A stretch of DNA of 64,000 bases from Kovacikia minuta CCNUW1 (GTDB lineage: Bacteria > Cyanobacteriota > Cyanobacteriia > Leptolyngbyales > Leptolyngbyaceae): assembly GCF_020091585.1 (NCBI RefSeq), contig NZ_CP083582.1, positions 7,140,536-7,204,535 on the forward strand, written 5' to 3'. Positions 36,679 through 49,463 of the stretch are shown here, in pieces (the first letter of the stretch is position 1; every line of letters starts with the position of its first letter). The position numbers and the translations under genes are program-made. The notes beneath the pieces are model-generated. The model made no database searches, was not told the DNA's origin, and saw only the letters and a program-made list of their open reading frames with translations.

Positions 36679-38235
36679 TTAAAGCTTACATCTTTCAAGA
36701 TCATAAAAATGGCTTGCCAGTGAAGATACAACATCAGCATCAATTCCAAACCAACCTACAACAAATGGAAGATGTCCTGGGCGAGCTGTATCACTGAAGT
36801 TTACATCAGAATAACTAAACCAGGGTTCAAACAAGTCATCCTCGTCCGAAGTTCTCATCTGCCATCCAATATGGTAGAAGAATCTCCTCCATACTTCCGT
36901 TTCATTGTCTAAGTAGGGTTCTGAACCATCGGGCTTGCCACCTAGTTGTAGAAAGATTCTCTTCTGAACACTAAAGCCAAATTTGCCATCGCTATGGCTA
37001 ACCCAAAGTCGATCAATCAAACGAATCTCCGTACAAGGAAACTTACCTTCAGCATCAGCATGCAGATATTTCTCTTTGTGTTTTCTAGCAACTTCCAGTA
37101 TTAGTGAGTACGTTGCATCGTCTGCATCACGCCACTTACCTGCTGAAAGTAATTCTTCTAAGTGACTGTAATCGATTCCCAAATCAGACTTAAGTCCCTT
37201 CGTTGAAGGGAATAGTACGTCAGTGGTTTCAGTCTGAACTTTGCTACTTCTTAACTCTGCCTTTGAATAGGAATAGACTGTTGAGTTTATCTTATTACCT
37301 GTTGTTTGAGGGGCAGAATTATATAGTGGAGAGACTTGAATAGGTCGTTTATCCATTATTCGTTGGATCGCTGCTGTAGCCTTCTCTTGATTTGGTTCAG
37401 GACTTGAAAGTATCTGAATCCACAGATCTATCGCTAGGCTGAAATCTCCATTTGCTTCAGCTTCTAATGCAGCAATCTTAAGTTGCTCAATATTTACTTG
37501 TGCTGCCAAGTGTGGCAGAAAAATCTGTTTCCCTTTGCTTACTGAGTCACAACGAATATGTGGTGTTTGAAAAGGTTTTCCATATTGCCGATTCAATTGG
37601 GGTACTCGCTCTTGCAAATACCTTTCTATTTGTTCAATTGTTAAACAATTGTTGCTTGTCTGGGCATAGAAATTTTGTAAAAGGGTACAAGTAAATGATC
37701 CTTGCTGGAAAGCTTCAATTTCCCAGGAAGACTCCTCTGGTTTGCAGGAAAATAACGTAATAACCCCATTTTGGATTTCACTACCAAACCCCTTTCCTTT
37801 GTGTCCTTGATTGCGACAAGCATCTAGAATCAAAACCACATTTCCGGCTCCATAACGACTCAAACGTTCCACCACTCGATTAAGAGAGATCGCTGTATCT
37901 TCTGGATTGTAAGGATCGCCATCCGCAGGTATTAGGTAATCCCGATCAGCATAGCGGATACCATGTCCACTGAAGAAAAACCACAAATTGTCCTCAGCTT
38001 CCATTCTTGGATTTTCAAATTCTTGATGCAGGAGACGTAATAAATCGGTTCTCCAAGGATAGGTAGATTCGCCTCGAACATCAGGTGAACTATCTGAGAA
38101 TAACCAGACTTGTTCGAACTTGGCTTCATTAATAAGATAGTCCTGAATCAATTCAGCATCCCGCTTGGCGTACTTGAGCGGGTGCATGAACCTATATTGA
38201 TTAATCCCAACAACGATCGCCAAATTCTTCGCCAT
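36679..38235 (-). CDS. Caspase-family protease fused to a GUN4 domain
   Basis: 518 aa. Residues 1-240 form a caspase-like (peptidase C14, metacaspase/orthocaspase) domain with catalytic His91 in FFFSGHGIRY and Cys140 in LILDACRNQ. A linker (~245-350) contains a TPR-like helical stretch (ALEAEANGDFSLAIDLWIQI). Residues ~355-505 are a GUN4 domain (LEELLSAGKWRDADDATY, then IDRLWVSHSDGKFGFSVQKR, VWRRFFYHIGW), which in the stand-alone protein binds porphyrins. Cyanobacterial caspase-GUN4 proteins are thought to act in signalling or cell death; substrate unknown. It begins 1 bp after the Pepco-like gene, so both are one operon. Confidence 0.9.
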   Translation of the reverse strand: MAKNLAIVVGINQYRFMHPLKYAKRDAELIQDYLINEAKFEQVWLFSDSSPDVRGESTYPWRTDLLRLLHQEFENPRMEAEDNLWFFFSGHGIRYADRDYLIPADGDPYNPEDTAISLNRVVERLSRYGAGNVVLILDACRNQGHKGKGFGSEIQNGVITLFSCKPEESSWEIEAFQQGSFTCTLLQNFYAQTSNNCLTIEQIERYLQERVPQLNRQYGKPFQTPHIRCDSVSKGKQIFLPHLAAQVNIEQLKIAALEAEANGDFSLAIDLWIQILSSPEPNQEKATAAIQRIMDKRPIQVSPLYNSAPQTTGNKINSTVYSYSKAELRSSKVQTETTDVLFPSTKGLKSDLGIDYSHLEELLSAGKWRDADDATYSLILEVARKHKEKYLHADAEGKFPCTEIRLIDRLWVSHSDGKFGFSVQKRIFLQLGGKPDGSEPYLDNETEVWRRFFYHIGWQMRTSDEDDLFEPWFSYSDVNFSDTARPGHLPFVVGWFGIDADVVSSLASHFYDLERCKL

Positions 38236-38236
38236 G

Positions 38237-38611
38237 CTATTTGAATTCTGTCTTTGTGAATTTCAGCTTAATCGCTCCCTTCCCGGCAGCTTTTCCTCCT
38301 GCCACTAGTTTAACCTCACCTTCGGCGCTAATTTCTACCGAAAGTTCTGCCTCCGTAAGTTGCATTCCAGACTTTGCACCTTTTGTACTTGCCTGCTGTT
38401 CTGTCTGTGCCTGTTGTTCTGCCTGAGCAAACAACCGACTCATCACTTGCAAGAAAGCCGCCATTTTCTTCTCTAGTTCAGCCGCATTCAGCTTGACCTC
38501 CTTAATGGCAGCTACCCGCTTCTGCATTTCCTCTCCCCAACCTCGCTGTCCTTCAACGGGATTAGGTGTCGTATTATCCTCCGTCACAACCCAAATGAAT
38601 TCTTCCTGCAT
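38237..38611 (-). CDS. Pepco-like small protein, partner of the caspase
   Basis: 124 aa. Begins EEFIWVVTEDNTTP, has a helical middle and Gln-rich linker, and ends LSVEISAEGEVKLVAGGKA.GKGAIKLKF. This layout resembles the small 'peptidase co-occurring' (Pepco) family that accompanies proteases in predicted prokaryotic conflict systems; the terminal GKGAI(K/T)LKF strand is the clearest point. The tight spacing with the caspase gene suggests the two products work together, for example as adaptor and effector. Family name from memory; moderate certainty. Confidence 0.65.
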   Translation of the reverse strand: MQEEFIWVVTEDNTTPNPVEGQRGWGEEMQKRVAAIKEVKLNAAELEKKMAAFLQVMSRLFAQAEQQAQTEQQASTKGAKSGMQLTEAELSVEISAEGEVKLVAGGKAAGKGAIKLKFTKTEFK

Positions 38612-38866: not shown

Positions 38867-41462
38867 ATGTCCTTCGTTGGTTTGCACATTCATAGTGATT
38901 ACAGCTTGCTTGATGGTGCCAGTCAGTTGCCAGAGCTGGATCGATCGCGCCGTTGAGCTTAATATGCCTGCGATCGCCCTCACCGATCACGGGGTCATGT
39001 ATGGGGCGATCGAGCTACTGAAGGTGTGCCGCAACAAGGGAGGCATCAAGCCCATCATCGGCAACGAAATGTACATCATGAATGGCGACGTTACCAAGCA
39101 GGAACGCCGTCCCAAGTATCACCAGGTCGTTCTGGCAAAAAATACCCTGGGCTACAAAAATTTAGTCAAGTTAACGACTATTTCTCACCTGAAGGGTTTT
39201 CAGGGAAAGGGGATTTTTGCCCGTCCCTGTATCAACAAAGATCTGTTAGAGCAGTACCATGAAGGGCTAATCGTAACCAGTGCCTGTTTGGGTGGAGAGG
39301 TACCCCAGGCAATCTTGCAGGGCAGACCAGAGATTGCCCGGCGGGTTGCCCAATGGTACAAAGACCTGTTTGGCGAGGACTACTACCTGGAAATTCAGGA
39401 TCATGGCTCCCTGGAAGACCGGATTGTCAATGTTGAACTCGTCAAAATTGCGCGGGAATTAGATATCAAAATTATTGCGACCAACGATTCCCACTACATC
39501 TCTTGCTATGACGTCGAAGCCCACGATGCCCTGCTTTGCATCCAGACGGGCAAGCTGATTACAGAAGACAAACGCCTGCGCTACAGCGGCACAGAATATC
39601 TGAAGTCTGCCGACGAGATGCGATCGCTATTCCGCGACCACTTAACCGATGACGTGATTGAGTCAGCGATCACCACGACCCTGGAGGTTGCCGAAAAAAT
39701 TGAATCCTACGAGATCCTGGGGGAACCCCGCATCCCCGACTATCCCATTCCCGATGGGTACACCGCCGCTACCTATTTAGAAAAAGTTGCCTGGGATGGG
39801 CTGCTCCAGCGGCATCACTGCCAGTCCCATTCAGAAATTAAACCAGAGTATTGCGATCGCCTGGACTACGAACTCAAGATGATGCAGCAGATGGGGTTTG
39901 CCACCTACTTCCTGGTCGTGTGGGACTTCATCAAATTTGCCAGGGATAATGGCATCCCGGTTGGTCCTGGAAGGGGTTCCGCCGCAGGTTCCCTGGTTGC
40001 CTATGCGATGGGGATTACCAACATCGATCCGGTGCATCATGGCTTGCTGTTCGAGCGCTTCCTGAATCCCGAACGTAAGTCCATGCCCGATATTGACACC
40101 GACTTTTGCATCGATCGTCGGGATGAAGTGATTCAATATGTGATGGAAAAGTATGGTGGCGATCGGGTAGCGCAAATCATCACCTACAACCGCATGGCTC
40201 CTAAAGCGGCGCTAAAAGATGTGGCACGGGTGCTGGATATTTCCTACGGGGAGTCCGATCGGATGGCAAAAATGATTCCAGTCCTGCGGGGCAAACCCAC
40301 TCCGCTCAAGGTGATGATTTCCGACGAAACTCCAGCACCAGAATTCAAAGAGAAGTATGATGCCGATCCGAAAGTGCGCCACTGGGTTGATATGGCAATC
40401 CGGATTGAAGGCACCAACAAAAGTGTCGGCATGCATGCTGCTGGGATTGTCATCTCTGCCCAACCCCTGGATGAAATTGTGCCACTGCAAGCCAATACCA
40501 AGGATGGCGATGGGGCAGTTGTGACCCAGTACTCCATGGAAGATATCGAATCGATGGGTCTATTAAAGATGGACTTTCTGGGGCTGAAAAACCTGACCAT
40601 GCTCCAGAAAACCGTCGAACTGATTGAGCAAACCCACCAGACCCGGATTAATCTCGATACGTTGCCCCTGGACGATCCAAAAACCTACAAACTTCTGGCA
40701 AGGGGCGAACTGGAAGGAATCTTTCAACTTGAATCGTCGGGGATGCGCCAGATTGTGCGCGACTTGAAGCCCTCCAGTTTGGAAGACATTTCCTCGGTGC
40801 TGGCGCTTTACCGTCCTGGCCCCCTCGATGCCGGGCTGATTCCCAAGTTCATCAACCGCAAGCACGGTCGAGAAAAGATTGATTATGCCCACCAAATCCT
40901 GGAACCGATTCTGGATGAAACCTACGGCATCATGGTCTATCAGGAACAGATCATGAAAATTGCCCAGGATATGGCGGGCTACTCCCTGGGGCAGGCAGAT
41001 CTGTTGCGGCGGGCAATGGGCAAAAAGAAAAAGTCCGAGATGGAAAAGCACCAGGAATTGTTTGTAACTGGTGCGGCAAAGAACGGTGTGAAGCCGAAAG
41101 TTGCGGAAGAACTGTTCAATCAAATGGTGTTGTTTGCGGAATATTGTCTTAGCTATGACACCCCGATTCAAACGATCGAGTACGGGTCGATCGAGATCGG
41201 CGAAATTGTCGAAAAGCAGCTCCAATGCACTGTTTATGGCGTTACACCTACGGGGTATCTGTATACCCAACCGATTGTGCAATGGCACGATCGGGGACAG
41301 CAAGAACTGTTTGAATACACCTTGGAAGATGGTTGCACCATCCGCGCCACCAGAGATCACAAATTCATGACCACCAACGGTCAAATGCTGCCGATTGATA
41401 CGATTTACGCCAAAGGCTTAGAACTCCAACAGGTGAAGGTTCCAGTTCTGGCTCAAGCCTAA
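38867..41462 (+). CDS. dnaE: DNA polymerase III alpha subunit, N-half with split intein; frame broken near codon 25
   Basis: The catalytic subunit of the replicative polymerase, here the N-terminal half of a split gene. ATG 38867 gives [20 protein letters not shown] (PHP domain start); the frame then hits TGA at 38954. The rest ([17 protein letters not shown] onward) lies one frame over and is open to TAA 41460-41462. Dropping one base at 38939-38942 (CTGGATCGAT to CTGGTCGAT) restores LVDRAVEL, as expected for the family, and gives 864 aa. PHP, palm ([20 protein letters not shown]) and GRGSAAGS motifs are intact. The C-terminal 105 residues are an N-intein. Because dnaE is essential, a sequencing/assembly insertion is the likeliest cause; a recoding site is less likely. 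Confidence 0.93.
41145..41459 (+). other. DnaE split intein, N-terminal half (Int-N)
   Basis: 105 residues from Cys1 (TGT 41145) after extein ...LFAEY. Block A is [14 protein letters not shown]; block B is [13 protein letters not shown] with the TxxH motif. Aligning by position with the well-known cyanobacterial DnaE inteins, Met75 and Met81, tied in the literature to very fast splicing, are present, and Arg70 replaces Lys. The other half (Int-C plus the polymerase C-half) must be elsewhere in the genome; the two halves join the polymerase after translation. Confidence 0.95.
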
Positions 41463-41662: not shown

Positions 41663-42556
41663 ATGAACTCTGAACAACAACCCCACCGTCAAGATCTCGT
41701 TTTAGGAGGTGAGCAACCTCCGCCGACTGCGGGTGCAGTGCTGGGAGGCATTGCCGGACTGAATCAGCGGTTTGAGCAAGGTGATGTGACCCAAAAACTG
41801 GCAACGCTGGTACAAGCCGCAAAGCATAACGATGGTTTAAATTTGCTGTATCGAGCGCTAGAGCATGAAGATTTGCTCATTCGTGCAGAAGCCTACGTGC
41901 AGCTAAAGGCGATCGCCTCCGCATCTTTTGTTCCAGCCTCGTTCGTTTCATCCCCTACTTTAAATCGTGGAATTCCGCTGAGAGTGAGCGATCGTATTTA
42001 CGCTGTGTATCGATCGTCTGTTTACTATGGAGATTATTTGTATTATATCAATGCTGAAATTGATGAGTGGTATCACAAAGACTACCCGTTCTATCACACC
42101 AGAAACACTGCTGGAGACAAATTTATATACGTCTCTGAGACAACTCAAACCAGATATGAAGCACCCAGTCTGATTGCCTACTTGTTTGACCGAAAAGCAG
42201 CGGACGCTAGAGCCAAAACAGTTTATCTGGAAGGGTTCGGGCAATTCAATTGTAATATCTGTGAGATTTGTCCAGATGATGAGTCAGAAGAGTCTGATCT
42301 GAACGATGAGCCGGAAGAATTCGATCTGAATGCTTGGGTAGCCACGAATGAGATTTTTGTTGAAGATGTATTGAAGGATTGGGAAGACTCAGACTGGACG
42401 TATCAAGCTCGTGTACTCATTAGTCTCCACAATCAGAAACGCTTTGATTTGTTGTGTGAAATTTGGCAACCATTGCGTTATCATCCCCTTGCCTTTGTTC
42501 ATGAATATGTCATCGATCGCCCCTGCTACCTACGCTTGGCAGCCCTTGAATCCTAG
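41663..42556 (+). CDS. Array paralog 1 (LGG..PPP / FVHEY family)
   Basis: 297 aa from ATG 41663; the frame is open further up (to 41531) but that part is decayed repeat DNA. Family features: N-terminal LVLGGEQPPPTAGAVLGGIA, a helical HEAT-like unit (LLYRALEHEDLLIRAEAYVQ), the GIPLRVSDRIYAVYRSSVYY block, a divergent acidic middle (DDESEESDLNDEPEEFDLN), and the C-terminal block PLAFVHEYVIDRPCYLRL. Function is unknown to me. Members of this kind occur in other cyanobacteria, sometimes in tandem or fused to repeat domains (general recollection). First of five tandem copies, all on the same strand. Confidence 0.7.
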   Translation: MNSEQQPHRQDLVLGGEQPPPTAGAVLGGIAGLNQRFEQGDVTQKLATLVQAAKHNDGLNLLYRALEHEDLLIRAEAYVQLKAIASASFVPASFVSSPTLNRGIPLRVSDRIYAVYRSSVYYGDYLYYINAEIDEWYHKDYPFYHTRNTAGDKFIYVSETTQTRYEAPSLIAYLFDRKAADARAKTVYLEGFGQFNCNICEICPDDESEESDLNDEPEEFDLNAWVATNEIFVEDVLKDWEDSDWTYQARVLISLHNQKRFDLLCEIWQPLRYHPLAFVHEYVIDRPCYLRLAALES

Positions 42557-42559
42557 TTC

Positions 42560-42676
42560 ATGGCTCACGACTCTCAGCCCCAGCAAAATGATCTGGTTTT
42601 GGGTGGAAGTTCCCCCTTGCCCAGTAGCTACGGTGTACACACAAGTCGATCGCTGATTCGTTTTCCGAAAACCTGA
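42560..42676 (+). pseudogene. 5' fragment of array paralog 2, cut by a MITE
   Basis: ATG 42560, 3 bp after the previous stop, starts a frame MAHDSQPQQNDLVLGGSSPL.. like the N-termini of the other array members. After 22 codons it enters the MITE and stops at TGA 42674. The remainder of the gene continues after the MITE in another frame, so this is the cut-off N-terminus. Confidence 0.8.
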
Positions 42677-42816
42677 TCCTCCACAACCTTGATTTCTCGT
42701 TGCCGGTTCTCAATAAGCCGAGATTATTGAGATTTCAGCCAATTTCCAAAGTTGAGGCAGAGCAAGGGTTTCAGGACTTGTGTTCACAGATTTCCGACTT
42801 GTGTGTACACGGTAGC
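42627..42816. mobile_element. 190-bp MITE, copy 2, inserted in array paralog 2
   Basis: Ends GCTACGGTGTACACACAAGT.. and the complementary ..TTGTGTGTACACGGTAGC. Flanked by a 10-bp direct repeat TTGCCCAGTA (42617-42626 and 42817-42826), the target-site duplication. Removing MITE plus one repeat copy (200 bp) restores a continuous frame LPSSGAILGG through the site. Identical by eye to copy 1 at 31958-32147. No transposase, so moved in trans by an unidentified element. Confidence 0.92.
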
Positions 42817-43701
42817 TTGCCCAGTAGTGGGGCAATTTTGGGCGGTATGCAAGGATTGCGCCAGCGACTAGACGTTGCTTCACCTGACCAGAAAGTAGAG
42901 TTACTTCCGCAATGTCCCAACTATCGTGAGGCTGGGATTGATCTGTTAGTGGAAGCTGTGAATGATACAGAATTGATTGTTCGGGCAAAAGCTTGTCAAT
43001 TGCTGCAAGGAATCAATTCTCCAAAAGCACAACAGGCGATCGTCAATGGGTTATTGCTGAATCCGGGCGATCGAGTTTTTAATGTTTGTGAGTCTGTCAT
43101 TGGCTATAACGATTGGTGTTACGACCTTTTACAGACATACGAAGACATTGAAGATTATGGCTATCGACTAACGTTAATTTCTCAACATATTCAGCGCTCA
43201 AGTGCTGAGATGGCTGCTCGATCGCATCATCAGTGGCGATCGATTCAGGAAGATGAATGCTATTACTTGCCCCGTATTGGTTGGGATGAACCGAATAGCA
43301 TCAGAAATAACTTTGATTTAGTGAATTGGTGCAAAACTCATCAGGTTTTGATTCGCTTACCAGGAGAAAGCCGAATTGATTTTGAGCAACGGTTGAATAG
43401 AATTGGTTACTCCATTTATCAAACGCATCGGTTAGTTGAAGAACACAGGCTCATTTCGCAGGAGTTAGCCAGAGAAGAGTTTGAGGAAGGAGAACCTACT
43501 GCCCACCGTTTGGGTATCCAGAAGCCCTGGAATTTAAAACTTCGGGGGACATTAGAAGATCGGGCAATTAAATTATTGCAAGCTGGGCAGCAATACGAAT
43601 TGTTGGGGCAACTTTGGCTGGAAGCAGCGGGTCGGCTTGCCTTTGTCCATGAAGAGACTGTGACCGAGCCGACTTATGTTAAAGTGGTAGAAAATTTATA
43701 G
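42700..43701 (+). CDS. Array paralog 2, body, now opening inside the MITE
   Basis: An open frame begins at a TTG inside the MITE (42700); its first 39 residues (PVLNKPRLLRFQPI...) are MITE-encoded and the identical peptide can be read from copy 1. From SLPSSGAILGGMQGLRQRL it follows the array family: HEAT-like unit, GLLLNPGDRVFNVCESVIGYND, a longer middle, and the LAFVHEETVTEPTYVKV end. Without the original start codon, the native 5' end is lost; whether the TTG start is used, giving a MITE-fused protein, is unknown. No clear ribosome-binding site precedes it. Confidence 0.65.
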   Translation: MPVLNKPRLLRFQPISKVEAEQGFQDLCSQISDLCVHGSLPSSGAILGGMQGLRQRLDVASPDQKVELLPQCPNYREAGIDLLVEAVNDTELIVRAKACQLLQGINSPKAQQAIVNGLLLNPGDRVFNVCESVIGYNDWCYDLLQTYEDIEDYGYRLTLISQHIQRSSAEMAARSHHQWRSIQEDECYYLPRIGWDEPNSIRNNFDLVNWCKTHQVLIRLPGESRIDFEQRLNRIGYSIYQTHRLVEEHRLISQELAREEFEEGEPTAHRLGIQKPWNLKLRGTLEDRAIKLLQAGQQYELLGQLWLEAAGRLAFVHEETVTEPTYVKVVENL

Positions 43702-43713
43702 TACCATTGTATT

Positions 43714-44670
43714 ATGAATGCAAATCTTCATCCTGAAAGTACCGATGCGGTTATCGGTGGTCAAGTTCCGCCTCCTACCACCAGTGTGATTTTGGGTGGC
43801 ATGGCAGGACTGCACCAGCGTTTTGCATCTGGCAATTCTAACCAGCGGGTAGAGGTGCTTGCAGATGCGCTCAACTATGGCAGAGCGGGAGTCGATTTTC
43901 TGTTGGATGCGCTAGAGGATGCGGTTCTAGACGTTAGGGTGGCTGCGTACCAGTATTTGCAACAGGTGGTTTCTGAGCGAACCAGGCAGAAAACGGCTGA
44001 AGGAGTGCCGCAATGGTGGCAACAGTTTGAATCCACGCTGATTCCTGAGCGAGTGCAACGGACGATCGCCAAAGGAATTCCCCTCAAGCAGGGCGATCGA
44101 CTGTACAGGGTATATATTTCGGCGATCGACTACGACGATAACTATTACACCCTCTTAGATTCCGTACAGGCATATGAAGCTCACGATTTTTGCTATGACG
44201 GAGAACTGATTCATCCGGTAGAACGCTATCTTTTTCGAGAGCAAGCCGAACACGTCGCCCAAGACTTGCATCGAACGATTCTATCAAACGGCAATTTTGC
44301 TGAATTCAATCAGCGGCATCAACTTAAACTCAAACCCTCAGATTACTTCCTGTTCAAAATGGCAGAAGACTTATGTAATTTTTACCGCAACTACAGCCAA
44401 CCCATTCTCAATTGGTGTACAGCCCACGGCATTGATGTAGACCTCAGTGACTATCTTAACGAAGAAATCCCCGATGACGATGATCAGGGCGAATACTGGT
44501 GGGAAGCACAGGAGGCGGTTTTGCAGCAACTTCAAAGCCAGGGAAACTACCCACTTTTAGAGGAATTCTGCAATTTAATTGGCATGGGCAGATTTACCTT
44601 TGTGCATGAAGAAATCGTCGATCGCGATGGCTACTTCCCCGTCACGGGAACCCTTACCTCAAGAGCGTGA
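43714..44670 (+). CDS. Array paralog 3 (LGG..PPP / FVHEE family)
   Basis: 318 aa. N-terminal AVIGGQVPPPTTSVILGGMA, HEAT-like segment VDFLLDALEDAVLDVRVAAY, GIPLKQGDRLYRVYISAIDYDD, an acidic middle (LNEEIPDDDDQGEYWWE) and C-terminal FTFVHEEIVDRDGYFPV. Starts 12 bp after paralog 2 and ends 14 bp before paralog 4, so a polycistronic message is likely. Function unknown; the conserved ends and variable middle suggest a common scaffold with a diversifying recognition part. Confidence 0.75.
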   Translation: MNANLHPESTDAVIGGQVPPPTTSVILGGMAGLHQRFASGNSNQRVEVLADALNYGRAGVDFLLDALEDAVLDVRVAAYQYLQQVVSERTRQKTAEGVPQWWQQFESTLIPERVQRTIAKGIPLKQGDRLYRVYISAIDYDDNYYTLLDSVQAYEAHDFCYDGELIHPVERYLFREQAEHVAQDLHRTILSNGNFAEFNQRHQLKLKPSDYFLFKMAEDLCNFYRNYSQPILNWCTAHGIDVDLSDYLNEEIPDDDDQGEYWWEAQEAVLQQLQSQGNYPLLEEFCNLIGMGRFTFVHEEIVDRDGYFPVTGTLTSRA

Positions 44671-44684
44671 GTGGGTGAAATTAG

Positions 44685-45539
44685 ATGGCAAAACAACCCA
44701 AACAACCCCAAGCTACGGATGTCATTCTGGGTGGTCAGACTTCCCCTCCGGTCACTGGAGCCGTTCTAGGTGGGCTGGAGGGCTTACAAAAGCGATTTTT
44801 GCATCTTGATCCAAACCAAAAGCTTGAGGTGATGCCAGGTATTTTAGAACTGGGAGAACCGGGGATTGATTTACTGATCGCGGTTCTGAATGATGATGCA
44901 ATCTCTGTTCGCTACGAAGCCTATCGTTACTTGCAACAATCAGATTCCGAGACAGCAAAAAGCGCGATCGCTGCGGGCATTCCCTTAAAACCCGGTGACA
45001 CCCTTTATTGCGTCTATGAAATTCCCACTGGTTATAATGACGAAACCTACTATTTGTGTAACTCCATCCCTGAAGATATCCCTACAGCAGGAATTTACAC
45101 AGATATTGTCGAACATTCCCCTGCCGAAGAAATTGATTGGGAGTCGTTAGATCCAGAGGAGTTCGATTCGCTGATGGAAGAATGGGAAACTCCCAAGTTG
45201 GTTTCACGGCATCTATTGAGGGAAACAGCAGAGGAGATTGCAGAGTTACTCCATCAAAGGCATATTCTCGATCGCGATACTCCCAACTTGTTTGAATTTG
45301 ATTGTGTTCACACCAGTCAATTCGATGTCAATGTTTGGCGTGCTAACAACGGTTTGTCTTCCCAGCAACCGGAAACAGACTGGTGGGACATGGGAGTGCA
45401 ACTGGTGGAGGAACTCAAAACCCAACAGCAGATCGAATTACTCAGCCAACTCTGGAAAGAAACCGTAGGTCGATTAGCAGTGGTTCACGAACAACGGATT
45501 AAGCGGAATGGTTATTTCAAAGTTACCCGATCGCTTTAG
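44685..45539 (+). CDS. Array paralog 4 (LGG..PPP / FVHEE family)
   Basis: 284 aa. N-terminal DVILGGQTSPPVTGAVLGGL, LEGLQKRFLHLDPNQKLEVM, HEAT-like LLIAVLNDDAISVRYEAYRY, GIPLKPGDTLYCVYEIPTGY, acidic middle, C-terminal LAVVHEQRIKRNGYFKV (FVHEE replaced by VVHEQ). Followed by a hairpin and an inverted-repeat element before paralog 5, so paralog 5 may have its own promoter. Confidence 0.75.
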   Translation: MAKQPKQPQATDVILGGQTSPPVTGAVLGGLEGLQKRFLHLDPNQKLEVMPGILELGEPGIDLLIAVLNDDAISVRYEAYRYLQQSDSETAKSAIAAGIPLKPGDTLYCVYEIPTGYNDETYYLCNSIPEDIPTAGIYTDIVEHSPAEEIDWESLDPEEFDSLMEEWETPKLVSRHLLRETAEEIAELLHQRHILDRDTPNLFEFDCVHTSQFDVNVWRANNGLSSQQPETDWWDMGVQLVEELKTQQQIELLSQLWKETVGRLAVVHEQRIKRNGYFKVTRSL

Positions 45540-45551
45540 GCAACTCAGATC

Positions 45552-45578
45552 CCCGACTTTTTGGGGAAAGTCGGATTT
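45552..45578 (+). terminator. Possible terminator after array paralog 4
   Basis: CCGACTTT pairs with AAAGTCGG around TTGGGG, followed by ATTTTG. A short stem and weak T-run, 13 bp after the paralog 4 stop. Could reduce transcription into paralog 5. Confidence 0.45.
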
Positions 45579-45580
45579 TG

Positions 45581-45644
45581 TACGGGCGGGTTTTGCCAAG
45601 AGACTTACCCGTCGTCAGCAAATCTCGATCAAACCCGCCCCTAC
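45581..45644. repeat. Small inverted-repeat element (GGGCGGGTTT family), copy 2
   Basis: Ends TACGGGCGGGTTTTGCC and AAACCCGCCCCTAC are nearly the same as those of 11686-11746, with an unrelated centre. It sits between array paralogs 4 and 5, 41 bp before the latter's ATG. Confidence 0.75.
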
Positions 45645-45684
45645 GACCGACTTTATTTAATTCCCATCCCTAAATCACCCTTTT

Positions 45685-46485
45685 ATGAAAGAGCCACAAG
45701 CAACCGACGGAATTTTAGGTGGGCAAACTCCACCACCCATTAATAGCGCCACGTTGGGTGGTATCGAAGGACTTCAGCAACAGATGACGATCGCCCCACC
45801 CGAACAGCGATCGCAACTTCTCAGCACTGCACTGAACTATGGTGAAGCAGGCGTTGATTTAGTGATTGCTACGTTGAACAATGACCCCATTTTAACCGTT
45901 CGGGCAACGGCTTATCAATCGCTGCAATCAGTAGATTCGGAAAAGGCAAAAGCGGCGATCGCAAACGGTATTTTATTGAATCCGGGCGATCAAGTTTACG
46001 GTGTTTACAAATCAGCTATTCAATTTAATGACGAATTCTTTCGTTTAAATCCTGAACTTCAAGATCTAGATTTTATGAATGAGACCAATTGGGAAGAATT
46101 TGGATACGCAGATTACGAAAGCTTTTGTACGAGTGAAGATAACTATAACGGAGGAGAGATTGATAGTTATATTCCTAAACGCGTTGCTCACTATATTTCT
46201 AGAGAGGAAGCAGAAGCAGCGGCTGAACAGCTTCATCAGAAGTTAGTAAGCGAATGGGATTATACAGGTGATTTTGAAGAGAGAGCAGATTTTGACTTGA
46301 ATGAGTGGTGCCAAGCTAATCAGGTTTCATCTATTAGTGGATATGGCTACTTATATGACCTCAAGGTTGAACTGAAGGGAGAAGGGAACTATAAACTACT
46401 TGCAAAGCTTTGGAGGGATGCGATCGGTGACTTCGCGTTTGTGCGGGAGGAAACCGTAAGTGAGCCTCAATATTTGAAGCTTTGA
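45685..46485 (+). CDS. Array paralog 5 (LGG..PPP / FVREE family)
   Basis: 266 aa, the shortest. N-terminal DGILGGQTPPPINSATLGGI, HEAT-like DLVIATLNNDPILTVRATAY, SEKAKAAIANGILLNPGDQVYGVYKSAIQFND, acidic middle rich in Glu/Asp/Tyr, C-terminal FAFVREETVSEPQYLKL. Last of the five tandem copies; the TIM-barrel gene starts 34 bp further on. The spread of lengths (266-318 aa) comes mainly from the middle part. Confidence 0.75.
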   Translation: MKEPQATDGILGGQTPPPINSATLGGIEGLQQQMTIAPPEQRSQLLSTALNYGEAGVDLVIATLNNDPILTVRATAYQSLQSVDSEKAKAAIANGILLNPGDQVYGVYKSAIQFNDEFFRLNPELQDLDFMNETNWEEFGYADYESFCTSEDNYNGGEIDSYIPKRVAHYISREEAEAAAEQLHQKLVSEWDYTGDFEERADFDLNEWCQANQVSSISGYGYLYDLKVELKGEGNYKLLAKLWRDAIGDFAFVREETVSEPQYLKL

Positions 46486-46519
46486 AGGTACTGGAATTAT
46501 TGATTTAGAGGGAACTTGA

Positions 46520-47273
46520 ATGTTGGGACTGAGTATTACAGCGATCGGGATGCGATCGATTGATCAATGCCTGGACATCTTCCAAGCATTGCGAGAACCG
46601 ATGCAGTTGCAGTATTTGGAACTGGCGATCGGGAGTCCCTGTGGGGTGGAAGTTGATTATGGAGAGATTCCCCTGATTTTGCACGATGCTTGTTTGTATC
46701 AGGACAGAATGCGGCTGCGCTTGAATCCACTCCTACCCAAAACCTGGCAGACCTACGCCGCATTCATCGCGGATCATCATGTCCAAGCAGTATCACTTCA
46801 TCCGCCGTTACAGCGCGACTGTGAGCGATCGCAACTCGAAACTGCACTGGCACAGATGGAAAAAACATTGGCAGGTGCCTGTATTTCTGGAAGTTATGCC
46901 CTCCCCCGAATACTGGTGTTCCAGCTTCGATACGATTGTGAATCATCCCCTGCTGGTGGATGTGTCCCATGTGTTGATCTGGCATCGTGGCGATCCAGAA
47001 CGAACCCAGGAAACCTGTTTATCTCTGCTTAACAAGCATCCAGTGGGCGCAATTCACCTGAGCCATAATAACGGGCAGGCAGATGCCCACGATTTGATTC
47101 CAGAATCAGTCTGGTTTCGCGATCGCATCCCCCAGTGGTCAACCCAATACTTCGTCACCTACGAAAGCCTACCCACCTCCCAGGCAGCCTATGAACTCCT
47201 CGACAAACGAGCCAGACATCATACCCATTTACCGATTACGACACGAACTGTACCATCTTCCAGGGTTTCCTGA
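46520..47273 (+). CDS. TIM-barrel protein resembling the DUF692/MbnB group; frame broken at an A-run
   Basis: Two overlapping frames make one protein: the first runs from ATG 46520 to about 46860 (LGLSITAIG, LILHDACLYQ, AVSLHPPL), the second from 46866 (HWQVPVFLEVMPSPEYWC, LLVDVSHVLIWHRG, GAIHLSHNNGQADAHDLIP, YFVTYESLP) to TGA 47273. Removing one A from the six-A run at 46860-46865 joins them into ~250 aa. Conserved His, Asp, Asn and Glu at strand ends suggest a metal-binding TIM barrel like multinuclear non-heme iron oxidases (MbnB/TglH) or xylose-isomerase-like enzymes; this is a fold-level guess. It overlaps ycf35 tail-to-tail by 55 bp. Confidence 0.6.
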
Positions 47274-47599
47274 GACTCAACATCAAAACCCTGTGCTTGC
47301 ACGTTTGCCATTAATGTTTTGTGAGCGTACTTTTGCAGGATGGGGTTAAGGAAGTCTTGTTGCTTAATCCTTGTCCCCCAGAAGTCCGCAATCAGTTCAT
47401 AGTGGTCATCTCCATCCCTGCGACGAAAACCCAGGTCGTACCCATTCGATCGCCGGATAACGTATTCTGCCTGGGTTTTGTCGCCCTGATACCCGCGCAC
47501 CTGGGCATTACAGTCAACGCTGTAACCTAGCTCTTGCAATACTTCGTGCAAAATTTCGCCATTTTTGATTTGAACTTTGATGCGGCTAAAGTGAGACAT
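47219..47599 (-). CDS. ycf35: DUF1257 protein, Ycf35
   Basis: 126 aa. MSHFSRIKVQIKNGEILHEV and GYDLGFRRRDGDDHYELIADFWG match the Ycf35/DUF1257 family, conserved in cyanobacteria and some plastid genomes. Function is not established. It lies just downstream of ycf46 on the same strand (43 bp), a pairing seen in cyanobacteria and consistent with a shared role. Its last 55 bp overlap the TIM-barrel gene on the other strand. Confidence 0.9.
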   Translation of the reverse strand: MSHFSRIKVQIKNGEILHEVLQELGYSVDCNAQVRGYQGDKTQAEYVIRRSNGYDLGFRRRDGDDHYELIADFWGTRIKQQDFLNPILQKYAHKTLMANVQAQGFDVESQETLEDGTVRVVIGKWV

Positions 47600-47641
47600 G
47601 GATATCCTCCGGGTGTGGGGTGTGGGGTTGGGGGTTTTCTT

Positions 47642-49252
47642 CTAATCGACTTTGGGGGGGGCAATGCCACGATGTTGCGTTAACTGGCGCAACTCTTCGA
47701 TCAACTGGACATCTTGAGACGCGGGACGGGCACCGGTAGTGGCAGCCCATCGCTTGAGCGCATCGATCTGGTCGCGGGCGATCGCTGCTAACGGAACGGT
47801 TTCTTCGATCGCCTGCACGATGTCTTCGGTGTTAAAGTCCTGGCGATTGCCGGGAGTTCCACGGCTAAAGGCTCGTTGCATGCCATCAATAATCGTTTGC
47901 TCAATCTCGGCTCCACTAAAGTTTTTAGACTGGCGGGACAGCAGAGCCAGATCAAACTCGCGCAGGCGGCTGGGGCGCAATCGCTGTAAATGGACACGAA
48001 AGATTTCTTGACGTTCTTGCTCGGTTGGTAAGTTCAAGAAAAAGATTTCATCAAACCGCCCTTTCCGCAGCAGTTCCGCTGGCAAAATTTGGACATTGTT
48101 GGCGGTGGCAACGATAAATACGGGACTCGTTTTTTCCTGCATCCAGGTGATCAAATTGCCAAATACCCGCCGACTGGTGCCCGAATCGCCATCAAAGCCT
48201 GAGTTGATGTTGCCAAATGCCTTGTCAATTTCATCCATCCACAACACGCAGGGCGCGATCGCCTCCACAATCCGAATCATCTGGCGCACTCGGCTTTCGC
48301 TTTCACCCACCAACCCGCCAAACAGCCGTCCAGCATCTAATCGCAGCAGGGGCAGCCGCCATTCGTGGGCGATCGTTTTAGCAGAGAGTGATTTTCCCGT
48401 CCCCTGAATTCCCGCCAACAGCACCCCCTTGGGATTGGGAATACCATAACGCCGTGCTTCTTCGGTAAAGCTATCCTGCCGCATCTGCACCCACCGCTTC
48501 AAATGATCCAGCCCACCCACGCTCTTCAGCGATTCATGGGTGGTGACAAACTCCAGAATCCCTGTTTGGCGAAGGGCCTGTCGCTTGGCTTCCAAAACGC
48601 TGTCAATATCCTGTTCTGTGACCTGTTGTTTGGCGGCGATCGCCTTTGCCAACACCCGCTGAATTCGTGCCCGACTCAATCCCTGGCACGCCTTAACCAG
48701 TTGCTCTCTTGATAACTGCGACAACTTCAGTTTTTCTGGAACCACTAACAGGGAAAGCAGGTAATCAATTTCATCCGCATCGGGTAGCGGAAAATCAATC
48801 ACGGTCATTTCTTCAATAAACTCAGGCGGCACGTCGAGCGAATAGCTCGTCAAGATTAAGGTTTTGCGGCTGCGTTTGAGTTCACGGGCCAGGTTTTTGA
48901 TTTCGCGAATGACGGGTACATTACCCGGTTGCAGGGGTGCTTTAAGTACGGGATGCAAATCTCGCAGAACGTAAATTGCAGGTTTTTCAGCAGGTGCTTT
49001 GGTAATACGGCTCAGGGCAGCCATCGGTGAATTCTTGTCTGACCCGTTATCTTGCCAGCCACGGGCAATGTCCCAATAATAAAGTTCCCGTTGAGGGGTT
49101 GAATGCGCAGAGAGTTGAGCGAATACTTTCTCGATCGGTTCTTCTTCTGCACCCACGATATAAATCAGGGGATACCGTGCCCGCAACATCAAATCGAGCT
49201 GTTCAACAATGGTCTGATGACTGGCAGGGAGGGCAGATAAATTGGCATTCAT
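47642..49252 (-). CDS. ycf46: AAA ATPase Ycf46
   Basis: 536 aa from ATG 49252 (a TTG three codons earlier is in frame). The C-terminal half is an AAA module with Walker A GIQGTGKS, Walker B VLWMDEIDKAF, arginine-finger region LLRKGRFDEIFF and sensor 2 region SGAEIEQTIIDGM. The N-terminal half resembles a degenerate second ATPase domain (PLIYIVGAEEEPIEKVF, KTLILTSYSLDVPPEF). This layout is the Ycf46 protein of cyanobacteria and red-algal plastids, linked in some studies to inorganic carbon use; mechanism unknown. Probably co-transcribed with ycf35. Confidence 0.93.
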   Translation of the reverse strand: MNANLSALPASHQTIVEQLDLMLRARYPLIYIVGAEEEPIEKVFAQLSAHSTPQRELYYWDIARGWQDNGSDKNSPMAALSRITKAPAEKPAIYVLRDLHPVLKAPLQPGNVPVIREIKNLARELKRSRKTLILTSYSLDVPPEFIEEMTVIDFPLPDADEIDYLLSLLVVPEKLKLSQLSREQLVKACQGLSRARIQRVLAKAIAAKQQVTEQDIDSVLEAKRQALRQTGILEFVTTHESLKSVGGLDHLKRWVQMRQDSFTEEARRYGIPNPKGVLLAGIQGTGKSLSAKTIAHEWRLPLLRLDAGRLFGGLVGESESRVRQMIRIVEAIAPCVLWMDEIDKAFGNINSGFDGDSGTSRRVFGNLITWMQEKTSPVFIVATANNVQILPAELLRKGRFDEIFFLNLPTEQERQEIFRVHLQRLRPSRLREFDLALLSRQSKNFSGAEIEQTIIDGMQRAFSRGTPGNRQDFNTEDIVQAIEETVPLAAIARDQIDALKRWAATTGARPASQDVQLIEELRQLTQHRGIAPPKVD

Positions 49253-49463
49253 ACACAACAAACAAGCGCAATGCCTAAAACAAAGTGCTAAACCAAACCC
49301 AGTATTCCCCTTGCACGTTAAGATTTAGCAACCACTGGATTGATCTATTAAAGTACAGTTGTCCTATTAAAAGTTTAAAGCTTTCATAAAATCATGTACA
49401 CACAGTCCAATTAAGCCAAAGCAGTCCTCTGGGCAATCAACGAGGTGAGGAGAGGTTTGATTC

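Follow-up and report, generated by a model that had tools for sequence, protein, structure and literature searches.

Why are five consecutive genes of one protein family followed by a gene for a TIM-barrel protein? We address this question at positions 41663 to 47273 of a 64,000-nucleotide stretch of the Kovacikia minuta CCNUW1 genome (the window; NZ_CP083582.1, 7,140,536 to 7,204,535). We combine comparisons of related loci with structure prediction and analyses of selection. The comparisons show that the five genes, encoding an N-terminal module (N-module) and a C-terminal domain (C-domain), and the TIM barrel together make up the 3′ end of the STM4011-4015 cluster in a variant form found in cyanobacteria, a membership that is not visible from the window alone. 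The barrel is predicted to be an MNIO-like enzyme. In the most likely reading, whose chances we regard as about even, the paralogs are its dedicated partners or protein-sized substrates.

The arrangement becomes apparent in relatives, labelled here with G for genomes and L for loci; related loci were retrieved with a single paralog as query. In G019 (L038-L039), a contiguous cluster starts with a coiled-coil protein, an Hsp70/MreB-like protein, a WD40 protein and the leucine-rich repeat (LRR) protein STM4015, the latter two carrying the N-module of the paralogs, and proceeds via a 238-aa protein, the STM4014 ATP-grasp enzyme, the STM4013 hydrolase, a 241-aa protein and the radical S-adenosylmethionine (SAM) enzymes STM4012 and STM4011 to five paralogs and the TIM barrel. 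All five STM families (NCBIfam NF038073, NF006067, NF038075, NF038074 and NF038076) score over the NCBI cut-off in L038, directly upstream of the paralogs. The same gene order, with four paralogs and the right flank of the window (DUF1257, AAA ATPase), recurs in Lyngbya HA4199-MV5 (G003). In the K. minuta genome itself, the STM4015-STM4011 half is located at C1:6.197-6.207 Mb, about 1 Mb from the paralogs and the TIM barrel; hence, what the window contains is the tail of the cluster, separated from the rest. As the right flank is the same as in L036, the TIM barrel constitutes the 3′ end, and since STM4011 occupies the place of the left flank in relatives, the split-intein DnaE N-half marks the breakpoint. 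From our own reading of the sequences, an IS630-like transposase closely follows STM4011 in this distant half, and STM4013 is separated from the 241-aa gene by a further gene that resembles a transposase. The cluster is also present in G033, where other genes fill a gap of about 12 kb between its two halves. We note that the 238-aa (L038:10597-11313) and 241-aa (L038:13925-14650) proteins are conserved in the cluster and gave no convincing match in Pfam, NCBIfam, PHROGs or PADLOC, and that a relic of the entire cluster in G432 (L080:6906-8045) consists of one open reading frame (ORF) in which pieces resembling STM4015, STM4012 and the TIM barrel are fused.

Full-length paralogs and strong matches to the TIM barrel are found in exactly the same eight of 42 genomes of the order, in agreement with the family association proposed in the first-pass annotation, and STM4011 is present in seven of these eight and in no other. 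The corresponding chances, 8e-9 for TIM barrel and paralogs and 3e-7 for STM4011, presuppose independent genomes and are only indicative because of shared ancestry. Chance neighbourhood of the paralogs and the barrel was considered and is ruled out by the exact co-occurrence. Weak TIM-barrel matches occur in three further genomes, namely the G432 relic, a distant barrel of the AP_endonuc_2 type in G004 and a match in G032 that is short and unexplained. There are one to seven paralogs per genome, and in four genomes the last of them overlaps or adjoins the TIM gene: the two overlap by 14 nt in L045 and L046, join stop to start in L047 and are separated by about 5 nt in L049. Homologs thus do occur in tandem and beside a TIM-barrel gene, and the barrel does not belong to an unrelated, well-characterised family, so that neither outcome named beforehand as refuting the association was encountered. 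Because of the invariant co-occurrence, the fixed gene order and the overlapping genes in some genomes, we suggest that the C-domain proteins physically serve the TIM barrel as partners or protein-sized substrates.

The five plus-strand ORFs at 41663-46485 are true tandem paralogs, with 31 invariant columns in a full-length alignment and pairwise phmmer scores of about 80-165 bits, well above chance. The shared blocks described from the sequence alone, i.e. an LGG..PPP..LGG..GL start, a helical segment, IPL..GD..Y.VY and a C-terminal FVHEE, are likewise present, except that the N-terminal signature of g2 is not in one frame owing to an inserted miniature inverted-repeat transposable element (MITE). 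The AlphaFold2 model of g4, built from 26 sequences (mean predicted local distance difference test score, pLDDT, 79.6), comprises a disordered LGG..PPP..LGG leader (1-28), helices (31-97) and a mixed C-domain from residue 98. What had been taken as a HEAT-like helix is indeed a helical domain, and it resembles the ARM-like N-terminal domain of GUN4: the helices of g3-g5 match Pfam GUN4_N (PF16416) at E 1e-4 to 1e-3, with g4 residues 31-97 at 1e-4, the best score of 22.5 bits not reaching the gathering score of 24.3, and Foldseek matches the g4 helices to the GUN4 N-terminal domain 1z3x with probability 1.0. In contrast to GUN4 proteins, the paralogs carry a conserved disordered leader before this module and another C-domain in place of GUN4.

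The leader and the GUN4-N-type module are also found on GUN4, WD40, pentapeptide and LRR proteins across cyanobacteria, and therefore form a promiscuous cyanobacterial unit. In view of these fusions, of module swaps and of its presence on the STM4015 LRR and WD40 proteins of the cluster, the unit may serve as a common docking or recognition element, bringing different C-terminal domains to the same machinery. The same fusions are compatible with the paralogs being regulatory adaptors, perhaps for the stress or tetrapyrrole state, which would form an assembly with the LRR and WD40 proteins and remain chemically untouched, with the TIM barrel acting on a small molecule or another target. GUN4 contexts have been read as sensors regulating associated enzymes (PMC7159879), and the paralogs hold no conserved cysteine. 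Such a scaffold or sensor set leaves unexplained, however, why the C-domain proteins are restricted to TIM-bearing genomes and why G031 pairs a TIM barrel with one C-domain protein without a recognisable N-module, and we consider it possible, if on the unlikely side.

The C-domain is an orphan, and the C-terminal half of the paralog family was previously undescribed, as anticipated from the sequence. It has no convincing Pfam match, no fold match in the PDB (Foldseek of the g4 model) and no NCBIfam relative; PHROGs, PADLOC and a tblastn search of phages were all empty, and a phylum-wide sample of 386 cyanobacterial genomes revealed it solely in that of the window. The only match of a paralog model below E 0.1 in BFVD is an unnamed protein, A0A8D4GNB0 (E 0.003).

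The TIM-barrel protein noted downstream of the paralogs is present, but in the window split into two overlapping frames (46520-47032 and 46779-47273) by one extra base. Intact versions exist in relatives (L036:9823-10575 and L039:2511-3227). Both halves show ratios of nonsynonymous to synonymous substitution rates (dN/dS) of 0.07-0.15 against the relatives; hence, the extra base either was gained recently or stems from an error in the assembly. The AlphaFold2 model (pLDDT 81) displays eight strands, and its two first-ranked Foldseek matches are MbnB (top 7tcw_A, E 5.7e-6, with a TM score of only about 0.5), ahead of xylose-isomerase-like epimerases, DUF692 3bww, TglH and endonuclease IV. Profile alignment using hhalign to nine cyanobacterial MNIO proteins gave probabilities of 70-86% (E 4e-5 to 5e-6) with the ligand columns in register, as opposed to 0.2% for single-metal epimerases, a control profile of only two sequences. 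The invariant positions H55, H94, E124, D147, H150, H179, D188, H190 and E215 agree in order and spacing with the ligands of VcMbnB (H55, H91, E135, D165, N168, H194, D209, H211 and E238; PMC8888699), H150 taking the place of N168; E215 lies beyond the hhalign range and was placed by pattern only. The MbnB/endonuclease IV pattern H-H-E-DxxH-H-DxH-E is thus invariant in the family, and the earlier suggestion of a resemblance to MbnB/TglH is borne out by fold search, profile alignment and ligands. Judged from the model and the alignments, the barrel is MNIO-like in fold and ligand pattern, and is probably a multinuclear-metal enzyme, presumably an iron oxidase.

With the MNIO/DUF692 proteins (MbnB, TglH and ChrH; PF05114), the barrel shares the fold, the motif H-H-E-Dxx(N/H)-H-DxH-E and an adjoining protein gene, whereas it is shorter (238 aa), falls under PF05114 detection and is accompanied by neither a visible Cys-rich precursor nor a DUF2063/MbnC-type partner. 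MNIO enzymes usually rely on a partner protein of their own, and entire proteins may be among their targets (PMC12452194), which fits the pairing of paralogs and barrel. In addition, a distant Nostoc TIM barrel has a partner gene upstream that is directly coupled to it and belongs to another family, which supports a partner role. This AP_endonuc_2-type barrel and its coupled upstream gene, whose family is unnamed (L082:6507-7582 and L113:7297-8789), are found on a conjugative Nostoc plasmid and in the relative G004, with all nine putative ligands in L062/L082; the Nostoc partner was compared as a candidate relative of the C-domain and belongs to another family.

Several observations weigh against an MNIO-like oxidase served by the paralogs. 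The catalytic-base Asp of MbnB (E238+2) is Leu in the barrel, and neither hmmscan of the intact barrels nor the genome searches gave a PF05114 match, in contrast to E 1e-109 for true cyanobacterial MNIOs. Endonuclease IV has the same trinuclear ligand pattern, and together with the missing PF05114 match this is why we name the barrel MNIO-like rather than MNIO. It scores 14-15 bits against AP_endonuc_2 (PF01261), under the cut-off of 31.1, and a sequence search of the PDB gave no match. The number of cysteines, the usual MNIO target, ranges from 0 to 12 per paralog, and no position is conserved. The paralog-TIM system is restricted to eight genomes of one family, and L048 holds a solo paralog without a TIM barrel. 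Outside this family, the phylum sample yields STM4011 over the cut-off from four genomes, all of a single family (f28, probably Nostocaceae); these genomes carry STM4011-4015 including LRR proteins, with the N-module on two of the four sets, and lack paralogs and TIM barrel; G031 has barrel and single C-domain protein without STM4011. Hence, the two halves can exist apart.

Alternatively, the barrel may be a xylose-isomerase-like epimerase or isomerase, or an endonuclease IV-like hydrolase, in a small-molecule or saccharide pathway of the ATP-grasp enzyme, hydrolase and radical SAM enzymes, with the paralogs as accessory carriers. Tagatose/allulose epimerases and endonuclease IV follow closely behind MbnB in the fold search, the metal pattern of the latter is the same, and the distant relatives L062 and L113 are members of PF01261, L062 with all nine putative ligands. 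Such a role is quite unlikely: hhalign favours MNIO and finds no match to single-metal epimerases, albeit with a profile of just two sequences, and sugar epimerases, unlike MNIOs, do not typically come with a dedicated coupled partner gene. The genomic neighbourhood is one of neither DNA repair nor sugar metabolism, in which it differs from PF01261 systems.

The most novel version of the partner or substrate role, which we regard as speculative and rather improbable, would place the STM4011-4015 enzymes in a multi-enzyme pathway of protein modification. In one of its steps, an MNIO-like oxidase that is not part of the MNIO family as now recognised would modify whole folded C-domain paralogs, which the shared LGG/GUN4-N module would recruit by docking. 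For the STM4011-4015 families, no function has been assigned that goes further than the enzyme class, and our literature search found no study of the cluster, nor any description of a product or substrate for its two radical SAM enzymes, ATP-grasp enzyme and hydrolase. Nor did we find an NCBIfam model or a paper on a cluster that has tandem N-module/C-domain proteins together with an MNIO-like TIM barrel. The cyanobacterial variant offers candidate substrates or partners, a candidate extra enzyme and a shared docking module, rendering the function of the cluster testable, and suggests that MNIO-type chemistry may reach beyond the PF05114 profile used in genome mining.

The tandem copies, of which there are up to seven per genome, and the variable central segments had also prompted the idea of a rapidly diversifying recognition or immunity repertoire, which we consider very improbable. 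In a tree of the C-domain, which did not include g2, the g1, g3, g4 and g5 orthologs group cleanly across species. The estimable dN/dS values of paralog orthologs are 0.03-0.45, some g1 and g5 comparisons being saturated at synonymous sites. Between paralogs, the middle does vary as described. Orthologs, in contrast, show purifying selection there wherever dN/dS can be estimated, with no value above 1, although the constraint is mostly looser than on the ends; positive selection in this segment is thereby rejected. PADLOC had no match for three paralogs, the TIM barrel and four other cluster proteins, and PHROGs returned no phage family. Nor are both conserved ends a fixed part, as first assumed: in L037, g3 has an N-module that clusters with the g5 type, which reveals a swap between paralogs. 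Ortholog groups and purifying selection argue for distinct conserved roles with an exchangeable N-module instead of a diversifying repertoire.

In K. minuta, the unit has become separated from its enzymes and may be at least partly decaying, with loss of function, as suggested by the split, the MITE and the frameshift. The MITE interrupts g2 after about 22 codons from its ATG at 42560, and the start of the remaining 333-aa ORF is a TTG inside the element. Its terminal inverted repeats match at 19 of 20 positions, and a 12-bp target duplication, CTTGCCCAGTAG, is seen at the g2 copy (42616-42627 and 42816-42827); joining the g2 flanks across the element gives the empty site MAHDSQPQQNDLVLGGSSPLPSSGAILGG. 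The genome contains more than 40 almost identical copies of the element, which suggests recent mobility.

Table 1. Coordinates of the paralog-TIM unit, its domains and its flanks in the window
Feature	Position	Strand	Description
Left flank	38877-41462	+	DnaE N-half ending in split-intein N-part
Paralog g1	41663-42556	+	297 aa; LGG..PPP..LGG leader, GUN4-N-like helical module, novel C-domain from about 41966
Paralog g2	42560-43701	+	5′ part interrupted by MITE; remaining ORF from TTG 42700
MITE-like element	42628-42815	.	188 bp; 20-bp terminal inverted repeats
Paralog g3	43714-44670	+	318 aa; C-domain from 44074
Paralog g4	44685-45539	+	284 aa; domain limits from AlphaFold2 model and Foldseek
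g4 disordered leader	44685-44768	+	residues 1-28
g4 helical GUN4-N-like part	44775-44975	+	residues 31-97
g4 novel C-domain	44976-45536	+	residues 98-284
Paralog g5	45685-46485	+	266 aa; C-domain from 45967
TIM barrel	46520-47273	+	MNIO-like, xylose-isomerase-like superfamily; broken by +1 frameshift just before 46872
Right flank	47219-49261	-	DUF1257 protein 47219-47599, AAA ATPase 47642-49261; same in relative L036

The intergenic region between g4 and g5 (45540-45684) contains repeat-like sequence, CCCCGACTTT..CGGGCGGGTTT. Elsewhere in the window, Pfam matches identify a Caspase (Peptidase_C14) domain fused to a GUN4 domain (36679-38235, minus strand) and an adjoining Pepco-domain protein (38237-38611, minus strand); GUN4 with caspase is a described context in cyanobacterial conflict systems (PMC7159879).

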